A stretch of DNA of 22,636 bases, from IMG/VR virus record IMGVR_UViG_3300003702_000042, positions 1 to 22,636 of that record; one strand, given 5' to 3'. The DNA is from a virus. The stretch's first letter is position 1, and each line of letters begins with the position of its first letter. This document shows positions 4,564-22,636 of the stretch, in pieces. The notes under the pieces are model-generated. The model saw only the letters and a program-made list of their open reading frames with translations, did no database searches and had not been told where the DNA came from. Position numbers and translations under genes: made by a program.

Positions 4564-6384
4564 TTATACCATTCTTGGAATAAAAGTTGAATTAACTTCC
4601 TCTACTTTTAAATTTTTCATGTCATTATAAGCTTTGACTGCCCAATTAGCTAACATTAATGAAGTATAATTGTCTTTTCTGGCTCTGTTTGCCGAAGTAC
4701 TTCTTTTGAGATGCTGGGGAAGATCGAAAGTTTGGGTTCCCTTCGGGGTAGTTTTGACCTCTATTAGGGCACATTGTCTTTTCGTTTGATATATGAGATC
4801 GTCTTGAGCTTCAATCAATTCTCCCATATCTTTAAACTGGGTTAGCTTTAAGGGTACTCTCACCGAGGAAGCTGTGGAGAAAAAGCTTCCGCAAGCCGCT
4901 GTTCTCGAAGCGAAAAATATTCTTTTATGGTCTATACAGGACTGAAGATATTCGTTTCCATTTCTGATAAAGTCAGAGCTGAACACTTGCTTAAAACAAA
5001 TAACATGATTTTTTAGATTATATTCTCTTTTGACTCTCTTTAATTCCAGTTCGTAATCTACACCTAATTTTTCAGTATTAAAATCAAAAAACTTAATTTC
5101 AATACCAGCCCCTCTAAAAAGTTCCGATTCATTTGCCCCATCTATAAATTGATACCCGGCGTTGTCAATAATTATCATTTTTATATTAAAATGTTTATAA
5201 AGATAAAAAAGATATTTTATGTGATCTTTCAAATCTCCTCCAGCAACAGCATAAGCGTGAACTAAGGTGTAAGAATCTTCATTTAATTCCATAACCGACA
5301 TCGCAAAATAATCCGAACTCGGACTGTTACTGAAACTTGGGTCAATAGCTAAAATATATTCCTTGTCAGAGCTTCCTGCTATTTTTGTATGTGGAGCTTC
5401 GCCATCAAGAACAGTACATTCGTGCATTTTTTTAGCGCTAAAGTAACTATCGCTGCCATCTGTAAATTGAGCGCAATATTCTCTTTGAAAAGAAGAATGA
5501 GATTCTCCTCCAGATCTAGCTTCTTCTATAATAGTTTCATCAATCATGTCTTCGGGAAGAGAGCGGTATCCCATTTGGGATACAAAGTAATTGGACTGAA
5601 GAATGTCATCAGAATAAATATTACCCATCCACTCTTTATAAGTTTTATAGAGGTTTTCAAAACTGTAACTAGCAGAGGACAATGCAATCATTTTTGAATT
5701 ATTTTCAAAAACCATTCTATCCTTCTCTTTCATTTTCCCCTCTGTGATCAAATTGTCTTCGATTTCTCTTATTTTGATTCTTTCCGCAATATCTTGAGGA
5801 GCTACTAAAAATGGCATAAGCACCGTTCTTATTGTGTCTTCTGGTAAAAGCATAAACTCATCCAAAACAAGGATATTAGCACGAAAACCACGAATCTTTT
5901 CTCCGCTCAGAGGGATTGCTGTAATTGTCCCTCCGTTTATTCTCCATTCATGTTGATCGTTACGTTTAGATTTCGCACCAAAAGCGTGAGCTAACATTTG
6001 AGCTTCTTTTGATTCAACTATTTTTTCTATATTATTGAAAATAAATCTAGCTGTACGAAAAGTCGGACCCGCAATCAATATCTTCGTGCGAGGTTCGAAG
6101 ATGCACTGGAGAAAACAATAAATGGCCGCAATAAAAGTTTTACCACATCCACGTCCCCAAATGCACATATTAAAGTTTCTATTGAAGAACGCCTTAAGTG
6201 TTATTTCCTGATAAGCGGCCAACTTAACTCCGGAAACTAATTCCGTAGTGAAACCTAAGTTAGCCCTCAAAAACCTAGCTAAAGAAATTTTAGCTTGTTT
6301 ATCTTCCAGCGACCCTTTCAGCTGGAGGAATTGTTCATTTACGTTTTCTAATTTTCGGGAATATTTTTCCGGCTCATACCACAT
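4564..6384 (-). CDS. terL: Terminase large subunit (TerL), packaging ATPase-nuclease
   Basis: 606 aa. The N-terminal ATPase has a Walker A motif at residues 76-83 (WGRGCGKT), the arginine-containing form typical of TerL. Walker B is at 171-176 (ILVLDE, catalytic Glu176), and coupling motif ALSSAS is at 234-239. The C-terminal RNase H-like nuclease shows Asp348 in LAIDPS, Asp407 in IIIDNAG, and acidic residues near the end in AQDDLIYQ. The protein drives ATP-powered DNA packaging into the prohead and cuts the concatemer at start and finish. The gene follows the ERCC4 nuclease by 15 bases and precedes the portal. The ATG at 6384 is the first start that fits; no strong Shine-Dalgarno sequence is seen. 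Key residues look intact, so it should be active. Confidence 0.95.
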   Translation of the reverse strand: MWYEPEKYSRKLENVNEQFLQLKGSLEDKQAKISLARFLRANLGFTTELVSGVKLAAYQEITLKAFFNRNFNMCIWGRGCGKTFIAAIYCFLQCIFEPRTKILIAGPTFRTARFIFNNIEKIVESKEAQMLAHAFGAKSKRNDQHEWRINGGTITAIPLSGEKIRGFRANILVLDEFMLLPEDTIRTVLMPFLVAPQDIAERIKIREIEDNLITEGKMKEKDRMVFENNSKMIALSSASYSFENLYKTYKEWMGNIYSDDILQSNYFVSQMGYRSLPEDMIDETIIEEARSGGESHSSFQREYCAQFTDGSDSYFSAKKMHECTVLDGEAPHTKIAGSSDKEYILAIDPSFSNSPSSDYFAMSVMELNEDSYTLVHAYAVAGGDLKDHIKYLFYLYKHFNIKMIIIDNAGYQFIDGANESELFRGAGIEIKFFDFNTEKLGVDYELELKRVKREYNLKNHVICFKQVFSSDFIRNGNEYLQSCIDHKRIFFASRTAACGSFFSTASSVRVPLKLTQFKDMGELIEAQDDLIYQTKRQCALIEVKTTPKGTQTFDLPQHLKRSTSANRARKDNYTSLMLANWAVKAYNDMKNLKVEEVNSTFIPRMV

Positions 6385-7338: not shown

Positions 7339-8428
7339 TTAAAACCTCCTCTTCGGTTATTCCCATGATGCGGCATTTTATTTCGTCCATAGAAGAAAGA
7401 TTTTCGATTTCTTTTTTTAAGGTTTTTTTTCTTAAATCGGCGAGTTTTATCATTTTAACTCTAGTTTCCTCTTCTTTCCAAAGCTCCACTAAATTCAATA
7501 TAGAAGCGTTCTCTTTGATTTGTTTGCTCAGTCTATGACTTCTTTTTTCCTTGAGCTCATTGAGAAGTTTGGTTTGTCGGTTAACGCATTGGTTGTATTC
7601 TGTTTGGGCTGTGCTAATAGATTCCACAAGGCTCATGGCCAATCTTTTTCCCTCTGTCTCTTCAGCGGCTTGATCCAATAGCTCCTGAAGACGTTCAACT
7701 CTTATTTGAATATTAGAAGCTATGACAACTTCGGCAGAAAGTACAATGTATTGATCTACTTCTTCTTGAGTCAAATCAGGCTTATCGTTCGTGTATCTCA
7801 CGAAACTGCTTTCGAAAAGTTCTCTTTTTTTTAGAGAGTTGTAATTTGATATTTGATGCAAAAAACGATAAGTATGCATGTAGCCAATTAATTTAGAAAT
7901 ATTTTTCCTATCCGAAGCCCTGAGATTGTTTTTGTCTATACTCTCGTGGACGTATTTATTGATTCTGGCGATAGCTTTCAGCTCGCTTTTAGGGGGAGTA
8001 TAATCAGAAGGGGAAACTTCTTTAATTATTTCGGAAAGAACCACTTTGTCATCAATAGTTTTTAAATAATCGCTTACCGCCCTGTATCTGCAATCTAGAG
8101 GAGCTATGCTTTCATCAAAAAGTTCTCTAGCCATGTCTAGAGCTTTCATGGTGGAACAGTTATTGTAGATATACTCTCTCTCCTCTTCTCCTAATTCATA
8201 TTCTTTTTTGATATGAATAGATGTTACTGAAGCTTTTTTACCCTTCGAAGCCAAATATTTTCTTATCGCTTTTCCGTAAATGCTCCTACCGTCTCTGAAT
8301 GTTTCATCAACGAAAGGAAAGAGTTTATCAACCAAATCTTTTATCATCGGTGGCGTTTTGGAGTCCCACAAATTATCAATTTGAGTTTTTTGATTTTCTT
8401 CTAGTTTTATCTCCTGTTTCTTTTTCAC
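7331..8428 (-). CDS. Unknown helical protein, possible small terminase
   Basis: 365 aa with a GTG start at 8428 that overlaps the sigma-factor stop (GTGA), indicating translational coupling. I do not recognise a family with certainty. Residues about 20-130 look like a compact helical DNA-binding segment: SIYGKAIRKYLASKGKK resembles a helix-turn-helix, and a second helical unit contains EREYIYNNCSTMKALDMARE. Residues about 215-345 are strongly helical and charged, with long coiled-coil character (VERLQELLDQAAEETEGKRL through KEIENLSSMDE). DNA-binding N-terminus plus oligomerising helices, two genes upstream of TerL, would suit a small terminase subunit. That is inference from layout and composition; a transcription or replication accessory role is equally open. 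Confidence 0.6.
   Translation of the reverse strand: MKKKQEIKLEENQKTQIDNLWDSKTPPMIKDLVDKLFPFVDETFRDGRSIYGKAIRKYLASKGKKASVTSIHIKKEYELGEEEREYIYNNCSTMKALDMARELFDESIAPLDCRYRAVSDYLKTIDDKVVLSEIIKEVSPSDYTPPKSELKAIARINKYVHESIDKNNLRASDRKNISKLIGYMHTYRFLHQISNYNSLKKRELFESSFVRYTNDKPDLTQEEVDQYIVLSAEVVIASNIQIRVERLQELLDQAAEETEGKRLAMSLVESISTAQTEYNQCVNRQTKLLNELKEKRSHRLSKQIKENASILNLVELWKEEETRVKMIKLADLRKKTLKKEIENLSSMDEIKCRIMGITEEEVLNG
7345..7350 (-). promoter_or_regulatory. Strong Shine-Dalgarno for the ERCC4 nuclease gene
   Basis: AGGAGG on the minus strand, 6 bases before the ATG at 7338 and lying inside the end of the upstream gene. It is the best ribosome-binding site in the window and supports this start. 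It shows the phage uses Shine-Dalgarno initiation inside operons, unlike most motif-led genes. Confidence 0.75.
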
Positions 8429-9114
8429 AAATTTAAATCTCCCTCTGATATTAATTCTTTTGCTTTTTGTATTATTATTTTTTTTAAATTTTTTATCTGC
8501 TTGTATCCCGGGCTTCTATTTTTTTCGGAAGTTTTGTATCCCAACATTTTGGCTACTTCTTGTTCTGTTTTGCTTTTAAGATATAAATTTTCGTAAACGA
8601 TCCATTCGTTTATTTTGAGTTTAATCTTTAATTGCGTATTAAGTTTGCTAAAAAGCAAATCGAATTCAAAATCTTGAAGGGGAACATCGAGCATTTTTGG
8701 GGATGTGGTTTCCAGAGAGGCTGGCAGTTTGGTTTCATAGGCTACTTTTTTAGTTTTCTCCCATTGAGCATATAGGGGACAAGCTGGACCTTGAGAGCCG
8801 TATATGTAACATAAAGTGTCTGATTCTGCAGCGGCGCACTTAAGGCATGGGCGGCAATAATTTCCATAGTTATTCCTTATCAGATTTTTTATCTGGTTGG
8901 ATATTATTCGGTTAACCCAAGGAGCCAGAGGTTTCGATTGATCGTAAAGATGCCATTTTTTGAAAACGTGGATTCTTATTATTTGAGACACATCATCAAA
9001 ATCCATCCAAGCAAGAGCAGTAAGGTTCCACCTTTTTTTTCTTTTTTTGATTTCTAGGTCTATTTTTTTAGAACAATCTTCAAACTTTAGCTTTTTTTTT
9101 CTTTTTTTTGGCAT
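8425..9114 (-). CDS. Phage-encoded RNA polymerase sigma factor with Cys cluster
   Basis: 229 aa. Residues about 30-82 match sigma-70 region 2: acidic DFDDVSQIIRIHVFKKW, then APWVNRIISNQIKNLIRN, the pattern that binds core polymerase and melts the -10 element. Residues about 165-215 look like a region 4 helix-turn-helix (SKTEQEVAKMLGYKT). Between them lies an unusual cysteine group, Cys87, 90, 93, 102 and 112, possibly a zinc or iron-sulfur site. The first 30 residues are extremely Lys-rich and are encoded by A8, A9 and similar homopolymer runs. The gene starts 2 bases after the zinc-ribbon gene. Role inferred: redirecting host RNA polymerase to phage promoters, plausibly the GTGTAA-type motifs found here. 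Region 2 assignment is good; promoter pairing is hypothesis. Confidence 0.8.
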   Translation of the reverse strand: MPKKRKKKLKFEDCSKKIDLEIKKRKKRWNLTALAWMDFDDVSQIIRIHVFKKWHLYDQSKPLAPWVNRIISNQIKNLIRNNYGNYCRPCLKCAAAESDTLCYIYGSQGPACPLYAQWEKTKKVAYETKLPASLETTSPKMLDVPLQDFEFDLLFSKLNTQLKIKLKINEWIVYENLYLKSKTEQEVAKMLGYKTSEKNRSPGYKQIKNLKKIIIQKAKELISEGDLNL

Positions 9115-11683: not shown

Positions 11684-12037
11684 ATGGCGTACAGGACGGC
11701 AAATTTATTATTGGATCAGGGTTCAACGTTTTCCACTACTATTACGGGATACGATGTTGATGGAAATTTGTTAAATTTAACAGGATACAGCGTCAGAGCA
11801 AAAATCAAAGCGAACTATAGCACAGGAACTTCCCTTGTCGATATCACAACTTCAATTCAATCTGGAACTGCCGGGGACGGATATGTAAGTGGTAAAATCG
11901 ATTTATCCCTCACTGCGACCCAAACATCTGACTTAATGGCGAATGATTGGAGATACGACGTTGAGGTTTATAGCGGAATCAACGTCATAAGGGTACAGCA
12001 GGGGTTAGTGAGAATCAACCCGGAGATAACAAGATAA
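11684..12037 (+). CDS. BppU-like N-terminal domain / baseplate-associated protein
   Basis: 117 aa of beta-rich sequence: QGSTFSTTITGYDVDGNLL, NLTGYSVRAKIKANYSTG, then IDLSLTATQTSDL, DWRYDVEVYSG and VQQGLVRINPEITR. The strand pattern and the WRYDVEV...G.V.I.P ending match the immunoglobulin-like domain found at the N-terminus of baseplate upper proteins (BppU) and as free-standing small proteins beside tail-fibre genes. It probably helps attach fibres to the tail or baseplate. Its stop overlaps the next ATG (TAATG), so translation is likely coupled to the lipoprotein gene and then to the large fibre. Confidence 0.65.
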   Translation: MAYRTANLLLDQGSTFSTTITGYDVDGNLLNLTGYSVRAKIKANYSTGTSLVDITTSIQSGTAGDGYVSGKIDLSLTATQTSDLMANDWRYDVEVYSGINVIRVQQGLVRINPEITR

Positions 12038-12268: not shown

Positions 12269-15200
12269 ATGAAAGATATCAATTCGGCATCAGACAATAA
12301 GTTCTGGTTTGATATGCCAGCTAGTCCAACTGGCCAAAGACCCTCCTCCCCCATTGCGGGACAAATAAAGTACGATACAACCGAGGATGTTTTAGAATAT
12401 TATAACTCCTCCACTACCGGTTGGATAGCGGTTACTGGAGGTGGAGGCGGCGGAAGTTCTACTTATACTGGTTTAACGGATACCCCGGGAAGTTTGGGGA
12501 CGGCTGGGCAGGCGGCTGTGGTGAATGCCGCTGGCAATGCTTTAATTTTTTCTGGAGTAAGTGGCACGATAGGTCCCCAAGGCCCGAGCGGTGCGACAGG
12601 GCCTCAAGGAGCGGCTGGAAACGACGGATCCGATGGATCCGATGGATCCGATGGATCCGATGGAGCGGCTGGCGCTACAGGCCCGAGCGGTGCAGTAGGC
12701 CCAAGTGGCGTAGCAGGCTCAAGCGGTGCAACAGGCCCAAGTGGTGCGACAGGTGCGGCAGGATCAACTAATTTCACAGGACTGACAGATACTCCGGGAA
12801 GCTTTGGAACTGAAGGCCAGTCAGTTGTCGTAAATACCGCTGGTAATGCCCTGATTTTTTCAGGAGTTAGTGGGGGCGGCGGCGGCGGAGGAAGTTCTAC
12901 ATTTGTTGGTCTTAGTGATACTCCGGGATCATTTACAGCTGATAAATATATTAGAGTAAATTCTGCAGGGGATGCTTTGGTGTTCGTAGATGGAGGTACT
13001 GGTGACGGGGTCGCATTTAGTCAGATTTATACTGGAGATGGAACCACAACGAATTTTGTTCTCACAAATTCCGTAAGCCATGTAAAAGATCTGCTGGTTT
13101 CGGTGGAGGGTTTAATTCAAATTCCTGTTGTCGATTATACTTTAACGGGAACAACCGGAATTTCGTTTACCGCAGGAGTAATTAGTGGAAATTTAATTGA
13201 CATCCGCCATTTAGCTTTACCAAGCGGCGCGGCGGGTGCGGATGGATCAGTAGGACAAGGAATTGCATTTAATCAAACTTTCACGGGAGACGGAACCGGA
13301 ACTCAATTTACTTTGAGTAGCGCAATTCCAAACGATTATGATTTATTAGTTGATATTGACGGCTTAACTCAAGTTCCCACAATTGATTATACAGTAAGTA
13401 GCACTACGTTAACTTTTACTACTGGCGTATTAAGTGGAGATTTAGTAAATGCAAGATATCTTTCTTCAGGGCCAAGCGGGGCTGACGGAGCCGACGGAGC
13501 AGCGGGGGCTACAGGCCCAAGCGGCACAGCAGGCCCGAGCGGCGCAACAGGCCCGCAAGGATCTCAAGGAGCGGCCGGAAACGACGGGTCTGATGGAAGC
13601 GACGGAGCAGCTGGCGCTACAGGCCCGAGCGGCGCTACTGGGCCACAAGGCGCAACAGGACCAAGTGGCGCAACGGGTGCGGCAGGATCAGCTAGCTTCA
13701 CAGGACTAACAGACACTCCGGGAAGTTTTGGAACCGAAGGTCAGTCAGTCGTAGTAAATACCGCTGGCAACGCCTTGATTTTTTCTGGAGTTAGCGGAGG
13801 AGGGGGAGGCGGCGGAAGTTCCACTTTCCTCGGTTTAACTGATACGCCGGGAAGCTTTACTGCAAATAAATATCTGACTGTTAATTCTGCGGGGAGCGCA
13901 GTCCAATTTACATCTGCTAGCCCAACAGGGGGAGTTAAGTTTCATCAAACTTATACAGGGGACGGATCAACAACTAATTATCTTTTAGATGCTGAAGTTA
14001 ACAATTCTCAAGAAATGTTGGTTTCGGTTGAAGGGCTTATTCAAACTCCAGTTGTAGATTACACAATGGCCGGGTCTACTGGAATATCGTTTACAACGGG
14101 GGTCACAAGTGGGGACGAAATTAGTTTTCGGCATTTGGGGGGTTTAACGGGTTCTCCGGGAGCTGCTGGATCCGTTGGAGCAGATGGGACGGTAGGATCG
14201 GGTTGGACCACAACTGATCAAGGATACTTCACGGGTTTTGATCTTACCGGTTCAGCAGTTGGGATTGTGCAAAACGCCAGTGGTTCTATAGCGGGACTCG
14301 ATCTGGCTGACAACAAATGGGATGTCTCGATTATTGAAGAAACAGATTCTCAAGTAGTAACTGGTGACGCAAATTGGACTGATGTTGAATTACAGCTGCC
14401 GTTTGAGGGATCACATGGCGCGACAACAACGAGTGATGAAAGTGACGATAATAGAACCATAACATTAAACAGTAATGTCAGTATATCTACCGCTCAATAT
14501 AAAATAGGAGCTAGTAGCTTGTATGTTGCCACAAGCAGTAGCGCGGCTGAAATAGGAGGGAACTTTAGTTTTACAGGTGATTTTACTATTGAATTTTGGG
14601 AGTATATTAGTACCAGAAAAAACGATCATTCATCTATCGCTTTTAACGCTACAAGCGTCAACGCTGCTTATCACAGCATTATGTATGGTTATTGGAATGG
14701 CGGAAGTACAGTCAGGCTTTATTCATCTTCCAATGGAAGCTCTTGGACCATGGCTAACAATCTGGTGGTAGGTGATAAACTAGACAATCAATGGGTGCAT
14801 AGAGCTTTGGTGAGAAGTGGTACCACTTGGTATTCTTATCAGAATGGGACTCTATACTGGACTTCATCTTTGGGGTCTAACGCTTTAGCTACAACAAACC
14901 AATATCATTGGATAGGCCGGGGGTATGCTTCAACTTCAAATAGAACAAGTGACGCCTATTACGATGGCATAAGAGTCACTCCCGGAGTGGCAAGATATAC
15001 GGCTAATTTTACGCCCTCGACATCACCTTATTATACTAGTGATACTATTAATATCGTAGATACCAAATACATTGGCCAAATCGGCGGTTGGGACGATACA
15101 GACGTCGACTACGGTATCAAGAAGATTTCCAATTCAGAACTTTCCGTCAAGAAGATGGGAGCTGATGTTAGTGATCGTCCGATAGATAGGTTATATGTCA

Positions 15201-15970
15201 ATGTTCAAAAACTGGGAGCCGTTGGACAGGGGGTTGCGTTCAATCAACTTTATACAGGAGACGGAACGACCACTAACTATCTTCTTACTGATTACTATCT
15301 TCTTACTGATTCAGTTCCTAATACACAGGATTTGCTGGTCTCTGTGCAGGGTCTTATTCAAACGCCGAATATTGACTATACCATGGCTGCCAACACGGGG
15401 GTTTCATTTACTACGGGAGTTGCGAATGGAAAAGAAATCAGTCTGCGCTATCTGGCTTTGGGGCCAAGCGGTGCGACTGGACCGACAGGACCAAATGGTA
15501 CTGGGGTTGGGGTTTCCTTTAGTAATATATTTACAGGAGACGGTCTTACTTCTGGTTTCGCTGTGGAAAGTTCTGTTCCGGAAGCTAAAGATCTTTTGGT
15601 TACTCTTAATGGTATTATTCAGCGTCCCACGGCCGATTATACTTTGGTTGGTAATACTGGGGTGTATTTTGATTCAGCGTTAACGAGTGGGTTCAATCTT
15701 GAAGCGCGATATTTGTCAATGGGTGGAACTGGTGCACCGGGACCAGCAGGTTCGGCGGCTTCATTTGCGAAAGATGTATTTACTGGAGATGGGGTTGTTT
15801 CTGGATTTACCATGGGAAGATCCGTTTCGAACATATTGGAGACCACTGTCTTTCTTAATGGGTTGGCGCAATTCCCCGATGATAATTATTTTGTAAATGG
15901 AACAAGTCTGACTTTCGCTTCTGGAGATATAGCGAGTGGAGATTTGATAATGGTAAGGCATGTATATTAA
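12269..15970 (+). CDS. Large collagen-like tail fibre with LamG domain
   Basis: 1233 aa. It starts with a phage-fibre-type N-terminus (RPSSPIAGQIKYDTTEDVLE). Five GLTDTP-type repeats (a 33-residue unit) lie near residues 65-100, 167-200, 210-245, 474-508 and 518-550, joined by Gly-rich linkers. Two collagen-like Gly-X-Y tracts fall at about 102-166 and 401-475, likely forming triple helices. Six repeats of about 65-70 residues (pattern TGDGxTxxFxL...LLVxxxGLxQxPxxDYT...RxL) begin near 13007, 13259, 13931, 15230, 15509 and 15758. A LamG-like lectin domain occupies residues about 708-925. It has no signal peptide. It is probably the main fibre shaft; the LamG domain may contact host surface glycans. 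It leads directly into the LamG gene array, whose members share that domain. Confidence 0.85.
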   Translation: MKDINSASDNKFWFDMPASPTGQRPSSPIAGQIKYDTTEDVLEYYNSSTTGWIAVTGGGGGGSSTYTGLTDTPGSLGTAGQAAVVNAAGNALIFSGVSGTIGPQGPSGATGPQGAAGNDGSDGSDGSDGSDGAAGATGPSGAVGPSGVAGSSGATGPSGATGAAGSTNFTGLTDTPGSFGTEGQSVVVNTAGNALIFSGVSGGGGGGGSSTFVGLSDTPGSFTADKYIRVNSAGDALVFVDGGTGDGVAFSQIYTGDGTTTNFVLTNSVSHVKDLLVSVEGLIQIPVVDYTLTGTTGISFTAGVISGNLIDIRHLALPSGAAGADGSVGQGIAFNQTFTGDGTGTQFTLSSAIPNDYDLLVDIDGLTQVPTIDYTVSSTTLTFTTGVLSGDLVNARYLSSGPSGADGADGAAGATGPSGTAGPSGATGPQGSQGAAGNDGSDGSDGAAGATGPSGATGPQGATGPSGATGAAGSASFTGLTDTPGSFGTEGQSVVVNTAGNALIFSGVSGGGGGGGSSTFLGLTDTPGSFTANKYLTVNSAGSAVQFTSASPTGGVKFHQTYTGDGSTTNYLLDAEVNNSQEMLVSVEGLIQTPVVDYTMAGSTGISFTTGVTSGDEISFRHLGGLTGSPGAAGSVGADGTVGSGWTTTDQGYFTGFDLTGSAVGIVQNASGSIAGLDLADNKWDVSIIEETDSQVVTGDANWTDVELQLPFEGSHGATTTSDESDDNRTITLNSNVSISTAQYKIGASSLYVATSSSAAEIGGNFSFTGDFTIEFWEYISTRKNDHSSIAFNATSVNAAYHSIMYGYWNGGSTVRLYSSSNGSSWTMANNLVVGDKLDNQWVHRALVRSGTTWYSYQNGTLYWTSSLGSNALATTNQYHWIGRGYASTSNRTSDAYYDGIRVTPGVARYTANFTPSTSPYYTSDTINIVDTKYIGQIGGWDDTDVDYGIKKISNSELSVKKMGADVSDRPIDRLYVNVQKLGAVGQGVAFNQLYTGDGTTTNYLLTDYYLLTDSVPNTQDLLVSVQGLIQTPNIDYTMAANTGVSFTTGVANGKEISLRYLALGPSGATGPTGPNGTGVGVSFSNIFTGDGLTSGFAVESSVPEAKDLLVTLNGIIQRPTADYTLVGNTGVYFDSALTSGFNLEARYLSMGGTGAPGPAGSAASFAKDVFTGDGVVSGFTMGRSVSNILETTVFLNGLAQFPDDNYFVNGTSLTFASGDIASGDLIMVRHVY
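12572..12766 (+). repeat. First collagen-like Gly-X-Y tract
   Basis: Codes for about 65 residues of Gly-X-Y, rich in GPQ, GPS, GAT and GSD triplets. Contains the exact 9-base repeat at 12626-12661. A second such tract lies at 13469-13690. Confidence 0.9.
12626..12661 (+). repeat. Four exact 9-base tandem repeats (GGATCCGAT)
   Basis: Four identical head-to-tail copies encode Gly-Ser-Asp four times within the collagen-like tract. The copies show no synonymous differences, suggesting recent slippage. Each copy adds one in-frame Gly-X-Y triplet, so copy changes would only alter shaft length. Confidence 0.95.
13469..13690 (+). repeat. Second collagen-like Gly-X-Y tract
   Basis: Residues about 401-475 of the large fibre, similar in content to the first tract and followed, like it, by a GLTDTP repeat pair and a Gly-rich linker. 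The two blocks are an internal duplication with many synonymous base changes. Confidence 0.9.
15277..15312 (+). repeat. 18-base tandem duplication in the fibre
   Basis: Two adjacent 18-base copies (15277-15294 and 15295-15312) differ at one base and encode YLLTDYYLLTDS. The other five members of this repeat family lack the extra six residues, so this is a recent in-frame slippage in the fourth repeat. Confidence 0.9.
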
Positions 15971-15972
15971 AA

Positions 15973-17088
15973 ATGAGTTTAACAAAACCAACATTAGATA
16001 ATTTAAGAGCGGCCGGAGCAACGGTGGGGGATGTTTATTTCCCGCTGACGAAACTGTTGCTGCCGTTTGATGGATCGAACGGAGCGACGACAACGAGCGA
16101 CTTAAGTAATTCTAACCATACCGCGACTTTTGTTGGGAACGCTCAAATTTCCACAGCGCAAAGCAAGTTTGGGGGGAGCAGTTTATATTTAGATGGAAGC
16201 GGGGATGAAATAGACCTAGGATCAAGTTCCGATTGGAATTGGCCAACACCATCAGGCGCATCTGGCGATTTCACCATAGAATTTTGGCATCGTAGGACAG
16301 CAACGGTTGCGTGGGCTAGCTTTTTTAGCACATATGCCACAATTGGTGCGGCTGGTTTTATTTTTGGGTATCAAGATTCTACTGATAAGTTGGGATGGTA
16401 CAACGGCACTTGGTATTACGCCAGCGGTAGCGGTAATACTGCGGTGGCTGTTGATACTTGGTATCATATAGTTGCGGTAAGGTATGGTAGTACCACCAAG
16501 CTTTATCTGAATGGCGTAGAGGAGCTTAGTTTTACCGATAGTGGTTCTTACGGTACTGCCAAGCTGTGGCTCGGTAGCCGAGGGACGTCGGCCTATGTCC
16601 AAGGATACATGGATGATGTTCGTATCACGAAAGGTTTTGCTCGTTACACTTCCGCTTTCACTCCTCCAACTTCTGCTCATTTGACTTCTGCCGGTGACGT
16701 CAACAAACAGATTTTAATCAATTCAACCGCCGATGGAGTCGCGATAGGAACCGGCGGCATAAACCAAGCACGAATTGCGAAAGCGTGGGTTAATTTTAAT
16801 GGAACAGGAACAGTAGCGATAAGGGGAAGTTATAACGTAAGTAGTTTAACGGATGATGGAACCGGTAAATATAAAGTTAATTTTTCAACAGTAATGTCAG
16901 ACATTAATTATTCTGCGGTTGTAGATGGAAAGTATTCGGAAAGTGATGATGCCCTATATAACACATTCGGTTCTCTTAGAAGAATAGCGACGGCCACTTC
17001 ATACGTCGCTGTTAGGGGTGTTGGGGGGAACACGACGAGTACTTTCAGTGATATTACAACGTGCACTGTAATAGTTTTCGGGAATTAA
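15973..17088 (+). CDS. LamG-domain receptor-binding/fibre protein, copy 1
   Basis: 371 aa, starting 2 bases after the large fibre stop. Head type A (MSLTKPTLDNLRAAG). Residues about 26-232 are a LamG/concanavalin-like jelly roll: LLLPFDG, DFTIEFWHRR (99-108), DTWYHIVAVR (151-160), KLYLNG, then GYMDDVRITKGFARYT (211-226). A conserved linker, GDVNKQILINSTADGVAIGT, leads to the phage fibre tip module ARIAKAWVNFNGTGTVAIRG, common at the C-terminus of fibres in aquatic phages as I recall. Its last 60 residues are tip type X (AVVDGK, SLRRIA, YVAVR), shared with copy 6. Likely binds host surface sugars; the ligand is unknown. Confidence 0.82.
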   Translation: MSLTKPTLDNLRAAGATVGDVYFPLTKLLLPFDGSNGATTTSDLSNSNHTATFVGNAQISTAQSKFGGSSLYLDGSGDEIDLGSSSDWNWPTPSGASGDFTIEFWHRRTATVAWASFFSTYATIGAAGFIFGYQDSTDKLGWYNGTWYYASGSGNTAVAVDTWYHIVAVRYGSTTKLYLNGVEELSFTDSGSYGTAKLWLGSRGTSAYVQGYMDDVRITKGFARYTSAFTPPTSAHLTSAGDVNKQILINSTADGVAIGTGGINQARIAKAWVNFNGTGTVAIRGSYNVSSLTDDGTGKYKVNFSTVMSDINYSAVVDGKYSESDDALYNTFGSLRRIATATSYVAVRGVGGNTTSTFSDITTCTVIVFGN

Positions 17089-17091
17089 AAA

Positions 17092-18225
17092 ATGAAAGAA
17101 TTTTTATTAAATGAAATTAAAGCAACCGGGACGACAACGGGCGACGTTTACTTTCCGCAGACAAAACTTTTGCTGCCGTTCGATGGAACGAACGGGGTGC
17201 AGACAACGAATGACTTAAGTAATTTAAACAACGCTATAACTTTCGGTAATCAAGCATCAATCTCGACGGCTCAAAGCAAATTTGGTGGATCGAGTTGTCA
17301 TTTCGACGGTACTGGGGATTATGTTGATGTCGGTGGGTCTTATTGGCAGGACGCCATTAACAGTGGAGATTTTACCCTTGAATTTTGGTTATATGTAGAT
17401 GCTCATGGAGGAACCAGCCAGTCTTGGATTAACAGTTACGGAAATAATGCTGCAGGATGGGGACTTTATTGTGGTCCAAATAGGAACTTGTATTGGTGGC
17501 ATTATATAGGTGGATGGGGATATATAAATTATGCTCAAGGAAGTCGAACAGTTTTATCTCTAGATACGTGGCATCACTGCGCTGTTACAAGGTCAGGAAG
17601 TACTTGGCGAATGTTTTTGAATGGAACGCAGGAAGATTCCATAACAAACAGCGGTACTATAGGTACACAAAACGGTGCCATTCAGAGTGGAATACGTCTC
17701 GGAACAATAAATGTAGGTCATGATTATCCTGTTAATGGTTATATGGATGATCTTCGCATCACCAAGGGAGTCGCTCGTTATACGTCTAATTTTACTGCAC
17801 CAACAATCGCTTTACCTACTGTCGCCGGTGACATCAATAAACAAATTCTTATTAACGAAACTGCTGACGGAGTGGCAATAGGAACCGGTGGCATAAACCA
17901 AGCGCGGATTGCAAAGGCGTGGGTAAACTGGAATGGTACGGGGACTGTCGCAATTAGAGACTCCTACAATGTTAGTTCTGTGTCGGATAGAGCTACTGGT
18001 AAATATACAGTTAACTTTTCAACAGCAATGAGCGATACAAATTATTCAGGAGCCGGTAACGCAGGATTCAATACTACAAACGGCGGGGCTGACAATTTTA
18101 ATAGATGTCTACATTTTATTCCTTATACAACTTCCGCTGCTTACGCTAATAGTTTTATAGGAGATGCATCGAGCCCCTCACTTAGTGATTGTCACGTATG
18201 TACTTTGTTAGTTTTCGGGAATTAA
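17092..18225 (+). CDS. LamG-domain receptor-binding/fibre protein, copy 2
   Basis: 377 aa, ATG 3 bases after copy 1. Head type B (MKEFLLNEIKATGTTTGD). The LamG core is residues about 25-234, with DFTLEFWLYVD (93-103), DTWHHCAVTR (158-167) and GYMDDLRITKGVARYT. Its surface loops are unusually Trp/Tyr-rich (LYWWHYIGGWGYINYAQG), as often seen at sugar-binding sites. The linker and AKAWVN module are conserved. The C-terminal end is tip type Y (NRCLHFIPYTT, YANSF, and a CHVC pair), matching copy 4 rather than its immediate neighbours. Confidence 0.82.
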   Translation: MKEFLLNEIKATGTTTGDVYFPQTKLLLPFDGTNGVQTTNDLSNLNNAITFGNQASISTAQSKFGGSSCHFDGTGDYVDVGGSYWQDAINSGDFTLEFWLYVDAHGGTSQSWINSYGNNAAGWGLYCGPNRNLYWWHYIGGWGYINYAQGSRTVLSLDTWHHCAVTRSGSTWRMFLNGTQEDSITNSGTIGTQNGAIQSGIRLGTINVGHDYPVNGYMDDLRITKGVARYTSNFTAPTIALPTVAGDINKQILINETADGVAIGTGGINQARIAKAWVNWNGTGTVAIRDSYNVSSVSDRATGKYTVNFSTAMSDTNYSGAGNAGFNTTNGGADNFNRCLHFIPYTTSAAYANSFIGDASSPSLSDCHVCTLLVFGN

Positions 18226-18229
18226 AAAA

Positions 18230-19342
18230 ATGCCATTTAATAAACCAGATATATCTCAGTTAAGCGCCTTGGGAAGCTCCTTGGGGGATGTTTACTTTCC
18301 ACAGACGAAACTGTTGCTGCCGTTTGACGGAACAAATGGCGCAACGGCAACTAGTGATTTGAGTAATTCAAATCATACAATAACTTTTGTCGGCAACGCT
18401 CAAATTTCCACAGCGCAAAGTAAGTTCGGAGGGAGTAGTCTTTTATTGGATGGCACGGGGGATTATTTATCAGGAACTTTGAATTCCTCGTTAGGAGCTG
18501 GTAATTGGACTATTGATTGTTGGGTATTTTTACCAAATGTAACGCCAGATGATTGTTGGAAGGCTATCATCAGCATTGGAAACGGGCATAGTACCGCAGG
18601 TAGTATTTCTTTATATGCTCCCAGACATAATAGTACTGTAGGCTCAGCGGTAGTTATCCTTAATCAAGTTAATCCCGCCCTAGAGGGCACCACTAATATT
18701 AACGATAGTGCGTGGCATCACCTTGCGCTAGTTAAGAATGGTTCAACAACGAGCCTGTATGTAGACGGTACTTCTGAAGATTCATATTCTGATAGTCACA
18801 CTTATTCTCAAACGAGCCTATATGTCGGAACTACTCCTAATTGTACGAGTGGTGGGGATTTTGAGGGTTATATTGATGATCTAAGAATCTCCCAAGGTGT
18901 TGTCCGTTATACGTCAAATTTTACTCCGCCAACAATTGGAAATCTGACTTCTGCCGGTGACGTCAACAAACAGATCCTTATCAACTCGACCGCTGACGGA
19001 GTTGCAATAGGAACGGCGGGGATAAACCAAGCGCGAATCGCAAAGGCGTGGTGCAGGTTTGATGGAACTGCAGCCGCTGCAAGTATGATAGACGATTCTT
19101 ATAATGTGAGCAGCATGACTGATAATGGTACAGGAGATTATTCAATAAATTTTTCAACGGCTATGGTTAGCGCAAACTATACAGCATTTGGATCTGTGGG
19201 ATCAGGATCTGTTGATACTTATGTTGGAACACTAATGCGACCTCAAACTTACAGTACAACTTCTTTTCGATTCAAGATGGGGTATACACATAGTACACCT
19301 TATGATTATGCGCAAAATTCGGTACTAATTTTCGGGAATTAA
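18230..19342 (+). CDS. LamG-domain receptor-binding/fibre protein, copy 3
   Basis: 370 aa, starting 4 bases after copy 2. It has head type A (MPFNKPDISQLSALG), like copy 1, with which it also shares the NAQISTAQSKFGGSSL block. The LamG core spans residues about 26-234 (NWTIDCWVFLPN, AWHHLALVKN, GYIDDLRISQGVVRYT). The tip module is altered: AWCRFDGTAAAASMIDDSYN replaces the usual GTGTVAIR. The end is tip type Z (YTAFGSVGSGS, TYSTTSFRF), as in copy 5. Several cysteines (residues 97, 109, 204) are not shared by the other copies. Confidence 0.82.
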   Translation: MPFNKPDISQLSALGSSLGDVYFPQTKLLLPFDGTNGATATSDLSNSNHTITFVGNAQISTAQSKFGGSSLLLDGTGDYLSGTLNSSLGAGNWTIDCWVFLPNVTPDDCWKAIISIGNGHSTAGSISLYAPRHNSTVGSAVVILNQVNPALEGTTNINDSAWHHLALVKNGSTTSLYVDGTSEDSYSDSHTYSQTSLYVGTTPNCTSGGDFEGYIDDLRISQGVVRYTSNFTPPTIGNLTSAGDVNKQILINSTADGVAIGTAGINQARIAKAWCRFDGTAAAASMIDDSYNVSSMTDNGTGDYSINFSTAMVSANYTAFGSVGSGSVDTYVGTLMRPQTYSTTSFRFKMGYTHSTPYDYAQNSVLIFGN

Positions 19343-19345
19343 AAA

Positions 19346-20473
19346 ATGAGAGAATTTTTATTAAATAAAATCAAAGCGACCGGGACTACGGCGGGAGATG
19401 ATTCTTTTACGAAAGTAAAGCTTTTGTTGCCGTTGGATGGAGCAGACGCTGCAACTTCTACGGCTGATTCAAGCGATTTGGGACATACAATTACTCTCAA
19501 TGGTACCGCCCAGTTGGATACGGCTCAAAAGAAATTTGGGACAGCTAGTCTTTTACTCGATGGTAATAGTGATTATTTAAGTGTAGCTGATCACACAGGA
19601 TTTGACTTTGGTGCCGCCGATTTCACTATTGAATGTTGGATAAGATTTAATAACTTATTTAGAAATACTATATTCAGTCATTTTGCAAATAGCACATCAG
19701 CCTCTCAATCTCTTTATCTAACTCATTTTGACAGCAGTAATACTTTAAGGTTGGGATACCATTTAGAGGGGGGAAGCAACACTGACACAAGTTACTCTTG
19801 GTCTCCTTCTACGGGGACTTGGTATCATATCGCAGTAGAAAGAAGCGGCACAAACATTAAGGTCTATATTGACGGCACCGCGGTTATAACTTTAGCAGTT
19901 TCTACTACCGCTCTTCAGGCTTCGGAAGACCCATTTAGAATTGGTGTGTTTAATGACAACACTACTGGGAGTCCTACTTTGGATTGGTATTTTAATGGGT
20001 GGATAGATGATTTCAGAATCACCAATGGTCTTGCCCGTTACGCCGGTAACTTTACACCTCATACAACGGCTCATCTTATTGGGAGTGGAGATAATTCGAA
20101 ACATATCGTAATGAACTCTTCAGCGGATGGAGTTGCGACGGGAACCCTAAAAGAGGACAATAATAGGATTGCTAAAGCATGGTGCAATTTTAACGGAACG
20201 GGGACCGTGGCAATTAGGACGAGTTATAATATAAGTAGCCTTGTGGATAGGGGCACCGGCCTTTACTCCTTAAACCTTTCAACCGCCCTAAGCGAAGCTG
20301 ACTGCGCAGGTGCAGCGTCTGCGCTTGATCAAGATGCAGGAACTAACTCAACCCAGCGTAATAGAATGGTGAACGTTATACCAGAATCAACTACACTGGT
20401 GTATGTAAACACTTTTCATTTTACTAACGCAGATGATTGCGAGATAGTTTCTGCGATAATTTTCGGGAATTAA
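19346..20473 (+). CDS. LamG-domain receptor-binding/fibre protein, copy 4 (divergent)
   Basis: 375 aa, head type B (MREFLLNKIKATGTTAGD). It is the most diverged member. SFTKVKLLLPLDGADAATST replaces VYFPQTKLLLPFDGTNGATT, and KEDNNRIAKAW replaces GGINQARIAKAW, although the first 15 residues and the FGN end match. The LamG core contains DFTIECWIRFNN, TWYHIAVERSG, IKVYIDG and GWIDDFRITNGLARYA. The end is tip type Y (NRMVNVIPEST, YVNTF), as in copy 2. It may be an older or imported member whose ends have been kept uniform by conversion. Confidence 0.8.
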   Translation: MREFLLNKIKATGTTAGDDSFTKVKLLLPLDGADAATSTADSSDLGHTITLNGTAQLDTAQKKFGTASLLLDGNSDYLSVADHTGFDFGAADFTIECWIRFNNLFRNTIFSHFANSTSASQSLYLTHFDSSNTLRLGYHLEGGSNTDTSYSWSPSTGTWYHIAVERSGTNIKVYIDGTAVITLAVSTTALQASEDPFRIGVFNDNTTGSPTLDWYFNGWIDDFRITNGLARYAGNFTPHTTAHLIGSGDNSKHIVMNSSADGVATGTLKEDNNRIAKAWCNFNGTGTVAIRTSYNISSLVDRGTGLYSLNLSTALSEADCAGAASALDQDAGTNSTQRNRMVNVIPESTTLVYVNTFHFTNADDCEIVSAIIFGN

Positions 20474-20476
20474 AAA

Positions 20477-21592
20477 ATGAAAGAATTTTTACTTAACAAA
20501 ATCAAAGCGACCGGGACGACAACGGGCGACGTTTACTTTCCGCAGACGAAACTGTTGCTGCCGTTTGACGGATCGAACGGAGCGACAACCACTACCGACG
20601 AAAGTAACACTAATGGAACTGCGACTTTTTATAACGGGGCTCAAATCTCAACAGCGCAAAGTAAATTTGGAGAAAGTAGTTTATATCTTGACGGAAGCAA
20701 TGATTACATAGACCTTGCTGCAAATTCAAAATATGTCATAGCCGCAAACGCTGATTTTACATTTGAGTGCTGGATAAAGACATCTGTTAGTAGTAAGGAT
20801 AATACTTTATATAGGCGTATATTTATGCTAGACGGACCGACTGGATCCGCAACTGGAAACTTACAAATTGCAATGTATAGTTCGGCAACTGGGATAGCAA
20901 TAATAACAGGCTCAGGTTCATGGAACTTTACTGGAGGGTCAGATGTTGACGATGACAATTGGCATCATATTGCAATAGTTCGCTACTCTGGAACGGTAAC
21001 TGTTTATATTGATGGGAGTATAGAGGGTAGTTTTGCTAGTACGGTCTCTATAACGGCAAACAGTGGTTCTCCTCGTCCTAGGATAGGTGCTTACAACAGT
21101 ACTGCAGGAGTATTTAATGGTTATATTGATGATTTGAGGTGGACTAATTTTGCTAGATATACGTCAGCTTTTACTCCACCAACAACCGGGCATTTAACTT
21201 CTGAAGGAGACGTTAACAAACAGATCCTTATCAACTCGACCGCCGATGGTGTTGCGATAGGAACCGGAGGCATCAACCAAGCGCGAATTGCAAAGGCATG
21301 GGTGCATTTTGACGGGTCAGGAACAGTTGCTATTGATGATTCGTATAATACTAGTAGTATAACCGATAGGGGGACAGGATTATATAAAGTTAATTTCTCC
21401 ACAGCTATGAGTAATACAAGTTATACGGCTTCAGGAACAGTTAGTACAGGATCAGACCAAGTGACCCCTTATGTCATAAGAGCCACTACATATGCGACCG
21501 ACGGTTTTTCTTTCGCTGCAAATTGGTCAGGAACAAGTAGCACAGGGTATCAAGACGCTGATGATGCGACAGTAACGGTTTTCGGGAATTAA
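20477..21592 (+). CDS. LamG-domain receptor-binding/fibre protein, copy 5
   Basis: 371 aa, head type B. Its start region is nearly identical in DNA to copies 2 and 6, yet the bases just after (TCGAACGGAGCGAC) match copy 1. The LamG core includes DFTFECWIKTSV, NWHHIAIVRYSG, VTVYIDG and GYIDDLRWTNFARYTSAF. The 29-base linker tract is identical to copy 3. The end is tip type Z (YTASGTVSTGS, TYATDGFSF), also as in copy 3. Copy 5 is therefore a patchwork of segments seen in at least three other members. Confidence 0.82.
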   Translation: MKEFLLNKIKATGTTTGDVYFPQTKLLLPFDGSNGATTTTDESNTNGTATFYNGAQISTAQSKFGESSLYLDGSNDYIDLAANSKYVIAANADFTFECWIKTSVSSKDNTLYRRIFMLDGPTGSATGNLQIAMYSSATGIAIITGSGSWNFTGGSDVDDDNWHHIAIVRYSGTVTVYIDGSIEGSFASTVSITANSGSPRPRIGAYNSTAGVFNGYIDDLRWTNFARYTSAFTPPTTGHLTSEGDVNKQILINSTADGVAIGTGGINQARIAKAWVHFDGSGTVAIDDSYNTSSITDRGTGLYKVNFSTAMSNTSYTASGTVSTGSDQVTPYVIRATTYATDGFSFAANWSGTSSTGYQDADDATVTVFGN

Positions 21593-21595
21593 AAA

Positions 21596-22636
21596 ATGAG
21601 AAAAGTTAAATTAAATAAACTTCAAGCAACTGGGACGACAACGGGCGACGTTTACTTTCCGCAGACAAAACTTTTGCTGCCGTTTGACGGAACAAATGGC
21701 GCGACGACAACGAGCGATTTAAGTAATAGCAATATTTCGGTAACCTTTGCAGGAAACGCAGCTATTTCCACAGCGCAAAGCAAGTTTGGAGGGAGCAGCT
21801 TACATATTCCTAGCTCCAACGTTGATACTTTAGATTTCGGAAGTATAAGTAGTTTATATTTTCCTAATGATTTTACAATAGAATTCTGGTTTTTATCTAT
21901 TTCAGGAGCAGACTCCTCAGCGTTCATATTAAATTCGGGAAGCTCTTACCTTGCTATAAATTATGATTATGGAAATAGTAGAATTAATTTGTATTTAAAT
22001 TCCGCTGGCCCAACGGCTATTAATAGTCAAGTTTTAACTTCTTGGTCTCACATAGCTTTGTCAAGATCGGGATCGGCCTTGAAATTATACGTTAATGGAA
22101 CGTCTGTGTATTCAGCTACAAATTCTAGCGCATTAGGCTGGACATCCCCAACTTTGCATCGAATAGGGGGAGGCTCTGCGGCGGCGTTTTATATTGATGA
22201 TTTTAGAGTCACCGTTGGACAAGCTCGTTATACGTCAAACTTTACCCCACCAACAACCGGGCATTTAACTTCCGCCGGAGATGTAAACAAACAGATTATA
22301 GTTAACTCCACGGCTGATGGAGTAGCAATAGGAACCGGCGGGATAAACCAAGCGCGGATTGCTAAGTCTTGGTGCAAGTTTGACGGGACTGGAACAATAG
22401 CTATAACTAATTCTTATAATGTTAGCAGCTTAACCGACGATGGGCTAGGTAGATGGAAAGTTAATTTTTCGACAGCAATGGCCAACGCAGATTACGTAGC
22501 GGTAGTTGATGGAAAATTCAATACGTCAGATAGTAGCGGAAGGGTTACGCCGTCTCTGAGAAGAATAGCCGGGAACGTAGCATATGTTGGAGTGAGAGCG
22601 GAAGGCGCTAACGATACTTGGTACGATTCTGATGAA
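21596..22636 (+). CDS. LamG-domain receptor-binding/fibre protein, copy 6 (cut by window edge)
   Basis: 347 codons visible from ATG 21596, with no stop before the right edge. By comparison with its paralogues about 20-25 residues are missing. The head is a type B variant (MRKVKLNKLQATGTTTGD). The LamG core includes DFTIEFWFLSIS, SWSHIALSRSGS, LKLYVNG and FYIDDFRVTVGQARYTSNF. Linker and tip module are conserved (AKSWCKFDGTGTIAITNSYN). The end is tip type X (YVAVVDGKF, SLRRIA, YVGVR), as in copy 1 at the other end of the array. Confidence 0.82.
   Translation, partial: MRKVKLNKLQATGTTTGDVYFPQTKLLLPFDGTNGATTTSDLSNSNISVTFAGNAAISTAQSKFGGSSLHIPSSNVDTLDFGSISSLYFPNDFTIEFWFLSISGADSSAFILNSGSSYLAINYDYGNSRINLYLNSAGPTAINSQVLTSWSHIALSRSGSALKLYVNGTSVYSATNSSALGWTSPTLHRIGGGSAAAFYIDDFRVTVGQARYTSNFTPPTTGHLTSAGDVNKQIIVNSTADGVAIGTGGINQARIAKSWCKFDGTGTIAITNSYNVSSLTDDGLGRWKVNFSTAMANADYVAVVDGKFNTSDSSGRVTPSLRRIAGNVAYVGVRAEGANDTWYDSDE

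Follow-up and report, generated by a model that had tools for sequence, protein, structure and literature searches.

A six-gene array downstream of a long tail fiber

The window, by which we mean the whole stretch of DNA that was analyzed, is an entire linear viral record of 22.6 kb from an uncultured phage of probably marine origin. Its right part holds a long tail fiber gene (12269-15970, + strand) and, immediately 3' of it, six tandem genes. The region is anchored by a gene for a small protein (11684..12037, +), immediately 5' of the long fiber and the array, which matches phrog_1084 and, more weakly, an L-shaped tail fiber assembly protein. The long fiber itself (1233 aa) combines collagen repeats, a T7-type tail fiber domain and an internal LamG domain (Pfam Collagen, Phage_T7_tail and Laminin_G_3), and this LamG, at 14312-15040, is a seventh of the array kind. 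In a close relative (L164:3478-8280) the long fiber reaches 1600 aa and has two such internal LamG domains to the one in the window, and both fibers carry collagen-like repeats and repeated “TFxGLTDTPGSF” units. Elsewhere in the window, a reading frame at 8425-9114 (-) matches sigma-70 region 2 (PF04542) above the cut-off and may encode a phage sigma factor, and the terminase (4564-6384, -) finds its best deposited phages at <30% identity across about half of the protein, and isolates of the lineage therefore seem to be lacking.

The initial annotation described a tandem array of six LamG fiber genes, and six adjacent open reading frames of about 370 codons each are indeed found on one strand at 15973-22636. 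Copy 6 runs off the contig end, so that six is a minimum. Neighboring genes are separated by only 3-4 nt from the stop to the next ATG, and in all complete copies the final residues are FGN, after which the DNA reads TAAAAA(A)ATG. In each copy a LamG domain stands between a head of ~18 aa and a beta tip of ~100 aa; the LamG domain exceeds the Pfam cut-off in six of six copies (PF13385, E 1e-14 to 1e-20) and the tip of all six matches phrog_11355, annotated as “tail fiber protein”. Copy 1 (15973..17088; all six are on the + strand) joins a head of the MSLTKP family, which is also the first-place head in gene R1 of the closest relative, R, to a LamG and a tip of type X. Copy 2 (17092..18225) has an MKEFLL head, a LamG in common with gene R3 of the same relative and a type Y tip, and copy 3 (18230..19342) has an MPFNKP head, a LamG and a type Z tip. 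An MKEFLL head recurs in copy 4 (19346..20473), with a type Y tip and a LamG in common with genes S3, B2, C4 and A4 of other relatives, and in copy 5 (20477..21592), with a LamG and a type Z tip. Copy 6 (21596..>22636), cut by the contig end, has a head of the MRKVK family, the same as that of gene R2, together with a LamG and a type X tip. Promoter- and terminator-like sites within the array are fewer than in shuffled sequences, and internal promoters or terminators serving alternate expression were rejected on these counts. Because the genes are tightly packed and such sites are few, it is plausible that the array is expressed as one set.

Heads, tips and DNA similarity of the six copies

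The two head types recognized at first do not hold, as four head families are found once the relatives are included. The heads of copies 2, 4, and 5 are of one kind (81-94% aa), the heads of copies 1 and 3 are just 33% identical, and that of copy 6 is 56-62% identical to the shared head of copies 2, 4, and 5; the heads of copies 1, 3, and 6 each have their own counterpart in R. For the three tip types the outcome is mixed. In a tip tree of 42 genes the clades X and Y are supported at 0.95 and 0.97 and Z more weakly at 0.87, and identity within a type is just 33% aa for X (copies 1 and 6), 27% for Y (2 and 4) and 34% for Z (3 and 5), compared with 10-30% aa for the other copy pairs. Judging from these alignments, the types are real but old.

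The near-identical DNA blocks described on either side of the variable LamG loops were overstated overall, and only short exact runs at the junctions stand, up to 53 nt in length. Measured over stretches of 30 codons, the heads of the copies are 46-90% identical in DNA and the linkers after LamG 52-84%, and third-position identity per gene pair among the six copies is 0.33-0.45. The longest exact junction runs are those between copies 2 and 6 (53 nt), 2 and 5 (38 nt), 5 and 6 (35 nt), and 1 and 3 (31 nt). Taken alone, the six copies provide modest evidence for reassortment. Indeed, tips that share only 27-34% aa within a type and heads of ~18 aa would also fit a set of ancient paralogues that have diverged by vertical descent and never recombined, the apparent reassortment being noise in short divergent segments.

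Module exchange among related viruses

The closest relative, R (IMGVR_UViG_2788500387_000005, 43 kb), is colinear with the window in its core DNA (87.7% nt across 10 kb; terminase 94% aa), and this colinearity is lost in the long fiber and the array. The array of R consists of R1 to R3 plus the beginning of a fourth gene, with R3 at the contig end. A fixed, unrecombined set in relatives had been named beforehand as the outcome speaking against shuffling; what is found is that R3 is a three-parent mosaic whose head matches that of copy 3 (89% nt), whose LamG matches that of copy 2 (58-98% nt), and whose tip matches that of copy 5 (80-100% nt). The R3 and copy 5 tips are mostly ≥93% identical in nucleotides, including a run of 152 identical bases, and they average 95% nt (97% aa). 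This is above the identity of the core genome, so either the exchange was recent or the tip is strongly conserved.

Two scans of viral contigs and one of genome contigs gave a set of 43 genes from ten viral genomes. The number of copies per genome, which contig ends limit in some cases, is at least six in the window, at least four in R, four in S and in C, seven plus two in B, five plus two in N, two in E and in H, and one in F, and A has four together with a head-tip gene lacking LamG. All three modules are present in 42 of the genes. When a pair is called discordant if either LamG or tip is ≥65% aa identical and the other <40%, 25 pairs are discordant compared with three that share both modules. 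Specifically, B1 and N1 have head and LamG in common (96% nt) but not the tip (45%), B6 and E1 have LamG in common (91% nt) but neither head nor tip, and A3 and Bx1 have the tip in common (92% nt) but not LamG (38%). The same tree for all segments was the other outcome named beforehand against shuffling, and the LamG and tip trees (FastTree) share 1 of 39 splits, with each alignment rejecting the tree of the other in the AU test (p<1e-70 both ways). Module similarity correlates only weakly, with Mantel r values of 0.20 for head and LamG, 0.10 for LamG and tip, and 0.05 for head and tip. Incongruent module histories together with breakpoints in shared blocks are the mark of a recombining repertoire, and both are seen here.

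Ancient paralogues that never recombined are thereby rendered extremely improbable, since modules at 65-97% identity are joined to unrelated partners (in the 25 pairs versus 3), the LamG and tip trees reject each other, and R3 with the discordant pairs refutes this explanation unless all are assembly errors. Assembly error is in turn disfavored because the arrays of B and S each have a counterpart in a separate record that is 100% identical in nucleotides. As a general explanation, chimeric assembly was rejected on account of these identical arrays in separate records and because most mosaics join modules at 65-90% identity. Recent tandem duplication within an array was also rejected, as the nearest neighbor of a module is in the same phage in only 2-4 of 42 cases compared with ~4.6 expected. 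The strong support for the shuffling by recombination that the initial annotation proposed comes from the relatives and not from the six copies by themselves. The comparisons strongly support an independent swapping of head, LamG and tip both between gene copies and between viruses, and each virus thus has its own mix of probable cell-binding proteins.

Genomic setting and LamG-free arrays

Phages with a ~80% identical terminase retain PhoH and the phrog_1084 gene, and the phrog_1084 protein is 72-76% identical (aa) in relatives that have no long fiber or array behind it. In four such phages one or two LamG domains are present near PhoH in a single tip-less gene, another has two small tip-only genes ahead of phrog_1084, and no long fiber or array is found beyond phrog_1084 in the three that were read there. 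In a contig binned with Flavobacteriales and in a 144-kb relative (G035), the arrays are ~30-40 kb from PhoH. Because it is absent after phrog_1084 in relatives and located elsewhere in the binned contig and G035, the array is, on this gene-order evidence, an accessory part of these genomes that resides at different loci. The binned contig, a 77-kb phage contig of the lineage (L267/L268; NZWA01000041.1) with a two-gene and a five-gene array, was placed in a Flavobacteriales MAG, which is possibly that of the host or else a contaminant, binning of viral contigs being weak evidence.

Other viral contigs (L169, L170, L115, and L123) carry tandem genes of 130-150 aa with a head and a tip and no LamG. 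L169 and L170 have six heads of matching kinds in one order with the tips replaced; the heads that were compared are 83-99% identical (nt) and carry unrelated tips (42-48%). A single tip, 95% identical (nt) between the two contigs, is joined to head 2 in L169 but to head 3 in L170. From this pattern, the LamG-free arrays are seen as a simpler form of the same head/tip-swapping design. In L196 (6862-7212), an array-type head (MSLTKLTLDNLRAAG) is fused directly to a tip without LamG, and this gene is likely a deletion product or an ancestral form that bridges the LamG and LamG-free kinds. Small proteins with a GLVCxSCxIG motif are encoded near fiber loci (L196:7883-8194 (-), L178:18064-18375, and the G009 contig); they have a probable signal peptide and the motif resembles heavy-metal-binding (MerP-type) domains. 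At low identity the tip is also found in cultured phages, namely HMO-2011 and Octadecabacter, Rhizobium, and Vibrio phages, with a tail fiber annotation in several. None of 50,697 deposited phage genomes contains an array gene covered to ≥80% in one place, and the arrangement is therefore largely invisible in cultured collections.

Predicted fold and function

An AlphaFold2 model of copy 5 based on 43 homologues (pLDDT 78, compared with 59 for a 13-sequence model) contains a confident LamG jelly-roll at residues ~20-237, a low-confidence linker at 245-269, and a separate beta tip at ~271-371, and the head is also of low confidence. Both the profile match and the modeled jelly-roll place the domain in the LamG/ConA-like superfamily. 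In the structure search, whose list for this model is taken up by LamG domain matches, the modeled LamG (~20-237) resembles the domain 4 jelly-roll of AbnA (Z 20-21, rmsd 2.6, ~196 residues) and the tailspike of cyanopodophage Pan3 (Z 17.9, rmsd 5.8, 222 residues). Matches to clostridial neurotoxins were set aside as the shared lectin jelly-roll of their binding domain, at <20% identity over LamG, with no bearing on toxin function. The tip gives no Pfam match and no convincing sequence match in the PDB.

Every copy has the phrog_11355 tip and the array is directly 3' of the T7-type/collagen long fiber. Based on the likeness to jelly-rolls and a tailspike, the matches to a tail fiber family, and the adjacent long fiber, we infer receptor binding as the best candidate function of the array proteins. 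LamG domains are found in varied phage virion proteins, including head and packaging PHROGs, and the products might instead be virion-surface lectins that decorate the capsid or provide general glycan stickiness rather than tail-borne receptor-binding proteins. We consider this improbable, since a long fiber precedes the array in each genome whose upstream flank was inspected (window, R, S, A, B, and H), the tip hits a PHROG annotated as tail fiber, and LamG resembles the solved Pan3 tailspike.

We would tentatively entertain the possibility of a combinatorial adhesin kit whose heads are particle addresses, such that many different lectin-tip fibers (up to nine per genome) are present together on one virion and the cargo modules move from slot to slot and from phage to phage. 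The constant head order of L169 and L170, with exchanged tips and one tip in different slots, is a hint in this direction. With the window excluded, a choice made after the data were seen, head pairs of ≥70% identity within one array number zero compared with 4.15 expected (P=0.006). That copies 2, 4, and 5 share one head argues against a strict version of the address model.

Junction blocks and a proposed mechanism of exchange

Single-breakpoint scans locate the head/LamG breakpoint at residues 14-18, just ahead of GDVxFP, and the LamG/tip breakpoint mostly at residues 267-284, around RIAKAWV, with some of the latter falling earlier, in the conserved LamG end and the block after LamG. These positions match the domain borders of the AlphaFold2 model. 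In copy 5, junction block 1 (GDVYFPQTKLLLPFDG; 20525..20575, +) comprises the first LamG strand and the head/LamG swap point, and junction block 2 (the linker to GINQARIAKAWV; 21200..21310, +) comprises the LamG/tip swap point; both blocks have counterparts in all copies. We compared the 4-fold sites of identical residues within and between phages by label permutation. Identity is higher within than between phages for the head (0.62 versus 0.46), junction 1 (0.54 versus 0.36) and the linker (0.46 versus 0.40; P<0.001 for each), and in junction block 1 it reaches 0.71 among the six window copies compared with 0.36 between phages. There is no such excess in LamG (0.34 versus 0.34) or in the tip, and these two modules serve as internal controls for codon usage. 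Hence, synonymous homogenization is confined to the head and the junctions, which is the signature expected of recombination or conversion through the junctions.

Module exchange at domain borders is common in phages, different phages have conserved amino acids at the junctions, and the exact shared runs are short, all of which would suit illegitimate recombination with selection for intact domains, junction conservation then being a protein-level constraint only. The usual lower length limits for efficient homologous recombination are near the 53-nt exact runs seen here, and runs this short (≤53 nt) keep illegitimate exchange within the range of possible routes. Nevertheless, we think it unlikely, because the synonymous sites of the head and junctions are closer within than between phages (P<0.001) and those of LamG and the tip are not.

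Variable cassettes between conserved blocks also bear a superficial likeness to the products of dedicated machinery, that is, a diversity-generating retroelement or site-specific inversion of the shufflon type. A diversity-generating retroelement was rejected, as no RVT_1 (reverse transcriptase) match is found in eight related records (mostly fragments, none certified complete), and an inversion system (Gin/Hin or shufflon) was rejected, as six related records searched with the Resolvase family alone give no match, and suitable inverted repeats are lacking. Long inverted repeats are absent, there being just scattered, imperfect inverted pairs of 16-17 nt. Moreover, the array genes are all in one direction and all intact, and identical arrays are found in separate records. 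Dedicated machinery is for these reasons very unlikely. As neither a reverse transcriptase nor a resolvase nor a usable inverted repeat was found, and with the B and S arrays identical in separate records, ordinary recombination rather than a switch would be the simplest engine, and we infer that general rather than dedicated recombination is used.

We now put forward a hypothetical scheme, which we regard as likely, in which the array is a receptor-binding repertoire of accessory lectin-tipped fiber proteins diversified by homologous recombination or gene conversion at the two junction blocks. The head would function in docking or assembly, the LamG jelly-roll would bind glycans, and the C-terminal beta tip would contact the receptor or form a trimer end. 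Diversity would arise as gene copies recombine with or convert one another, and exchange would also take place between co-infecting related phages. Exchange would be located at the two conserved junction blocks, which coincide with the domain borders, and would thereby allow the three modules to reassort independently.

Comparison with known systems

Tetart, Desplats, and Krisch reportedly described the shuffling of the distal tail fiber adhesin of T-even phages in 1998, where, as here, conserved motifs lie on both sides of variable segments and recombination between these motifs exchanges the specificity. The T-even phages have single fiber/adhesin genes, however, whereas the array consists of tandem three-module paralogues in which LamG reassorts independently of the tip. 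In the branched tailspike complex of the Ackermannviridae, XD (Gp10-like) domains connect as many as four tailspikes, which are encoded by clustered genes and have N-terminal assembly domains and C-terminal receptor-binding parts, the latter exchanged by recombination (PMC11414711). The two systems are alike in having several receptor-binding protein genes per cluster and recombination between copies, but in place of at most four XD-linked tailspikes there are up to nine LamG proteins with ~18-aa heads and no recognizable XD, a general Pfam scan of the copies giving no match to XD/Gp10-like domains. Tail fiber domain shuffling is ongoing across distant phages according to a survey whose main text makes no mention of LamG (Smug et al., 2023; PMC10684548). 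Domain shuffling is common to both, and the tandem setting and synonymous homogenization of the junctions are particular to the array. Metaviromic islands, found through under-recruitment of reads, contain host-recognition genes (tail fiber, lectin-like and C1q-like) that vary in otherwise conserved marine phages, although the account of these islands is not known to include a tandem modular array or breakpoints (PMC3909814). In the broad-host-range phages of Schizotequatrovirus, recombination has its hotspots at the receptor-binding loci (PMC12028318); that system involves other proteins and allelic exchange of receptor-binding proteins rather than a tandem array of lectin cassettes. The array is apparently an extreme, undescribed variant of known phage adhesin mosaicism.

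The array offers a clean and quantifiable case of natural combinatorial adhesin assembly in which one can see the modules and their borders, the parents and the breakpoints. Its modules form a catalogue for tying lectin and tip types to hosts in metagenomes. The presence of many paralogous lectin fibers on one genome bears on how a broad or shifting host range may be attained without a dedicated diversity generator.
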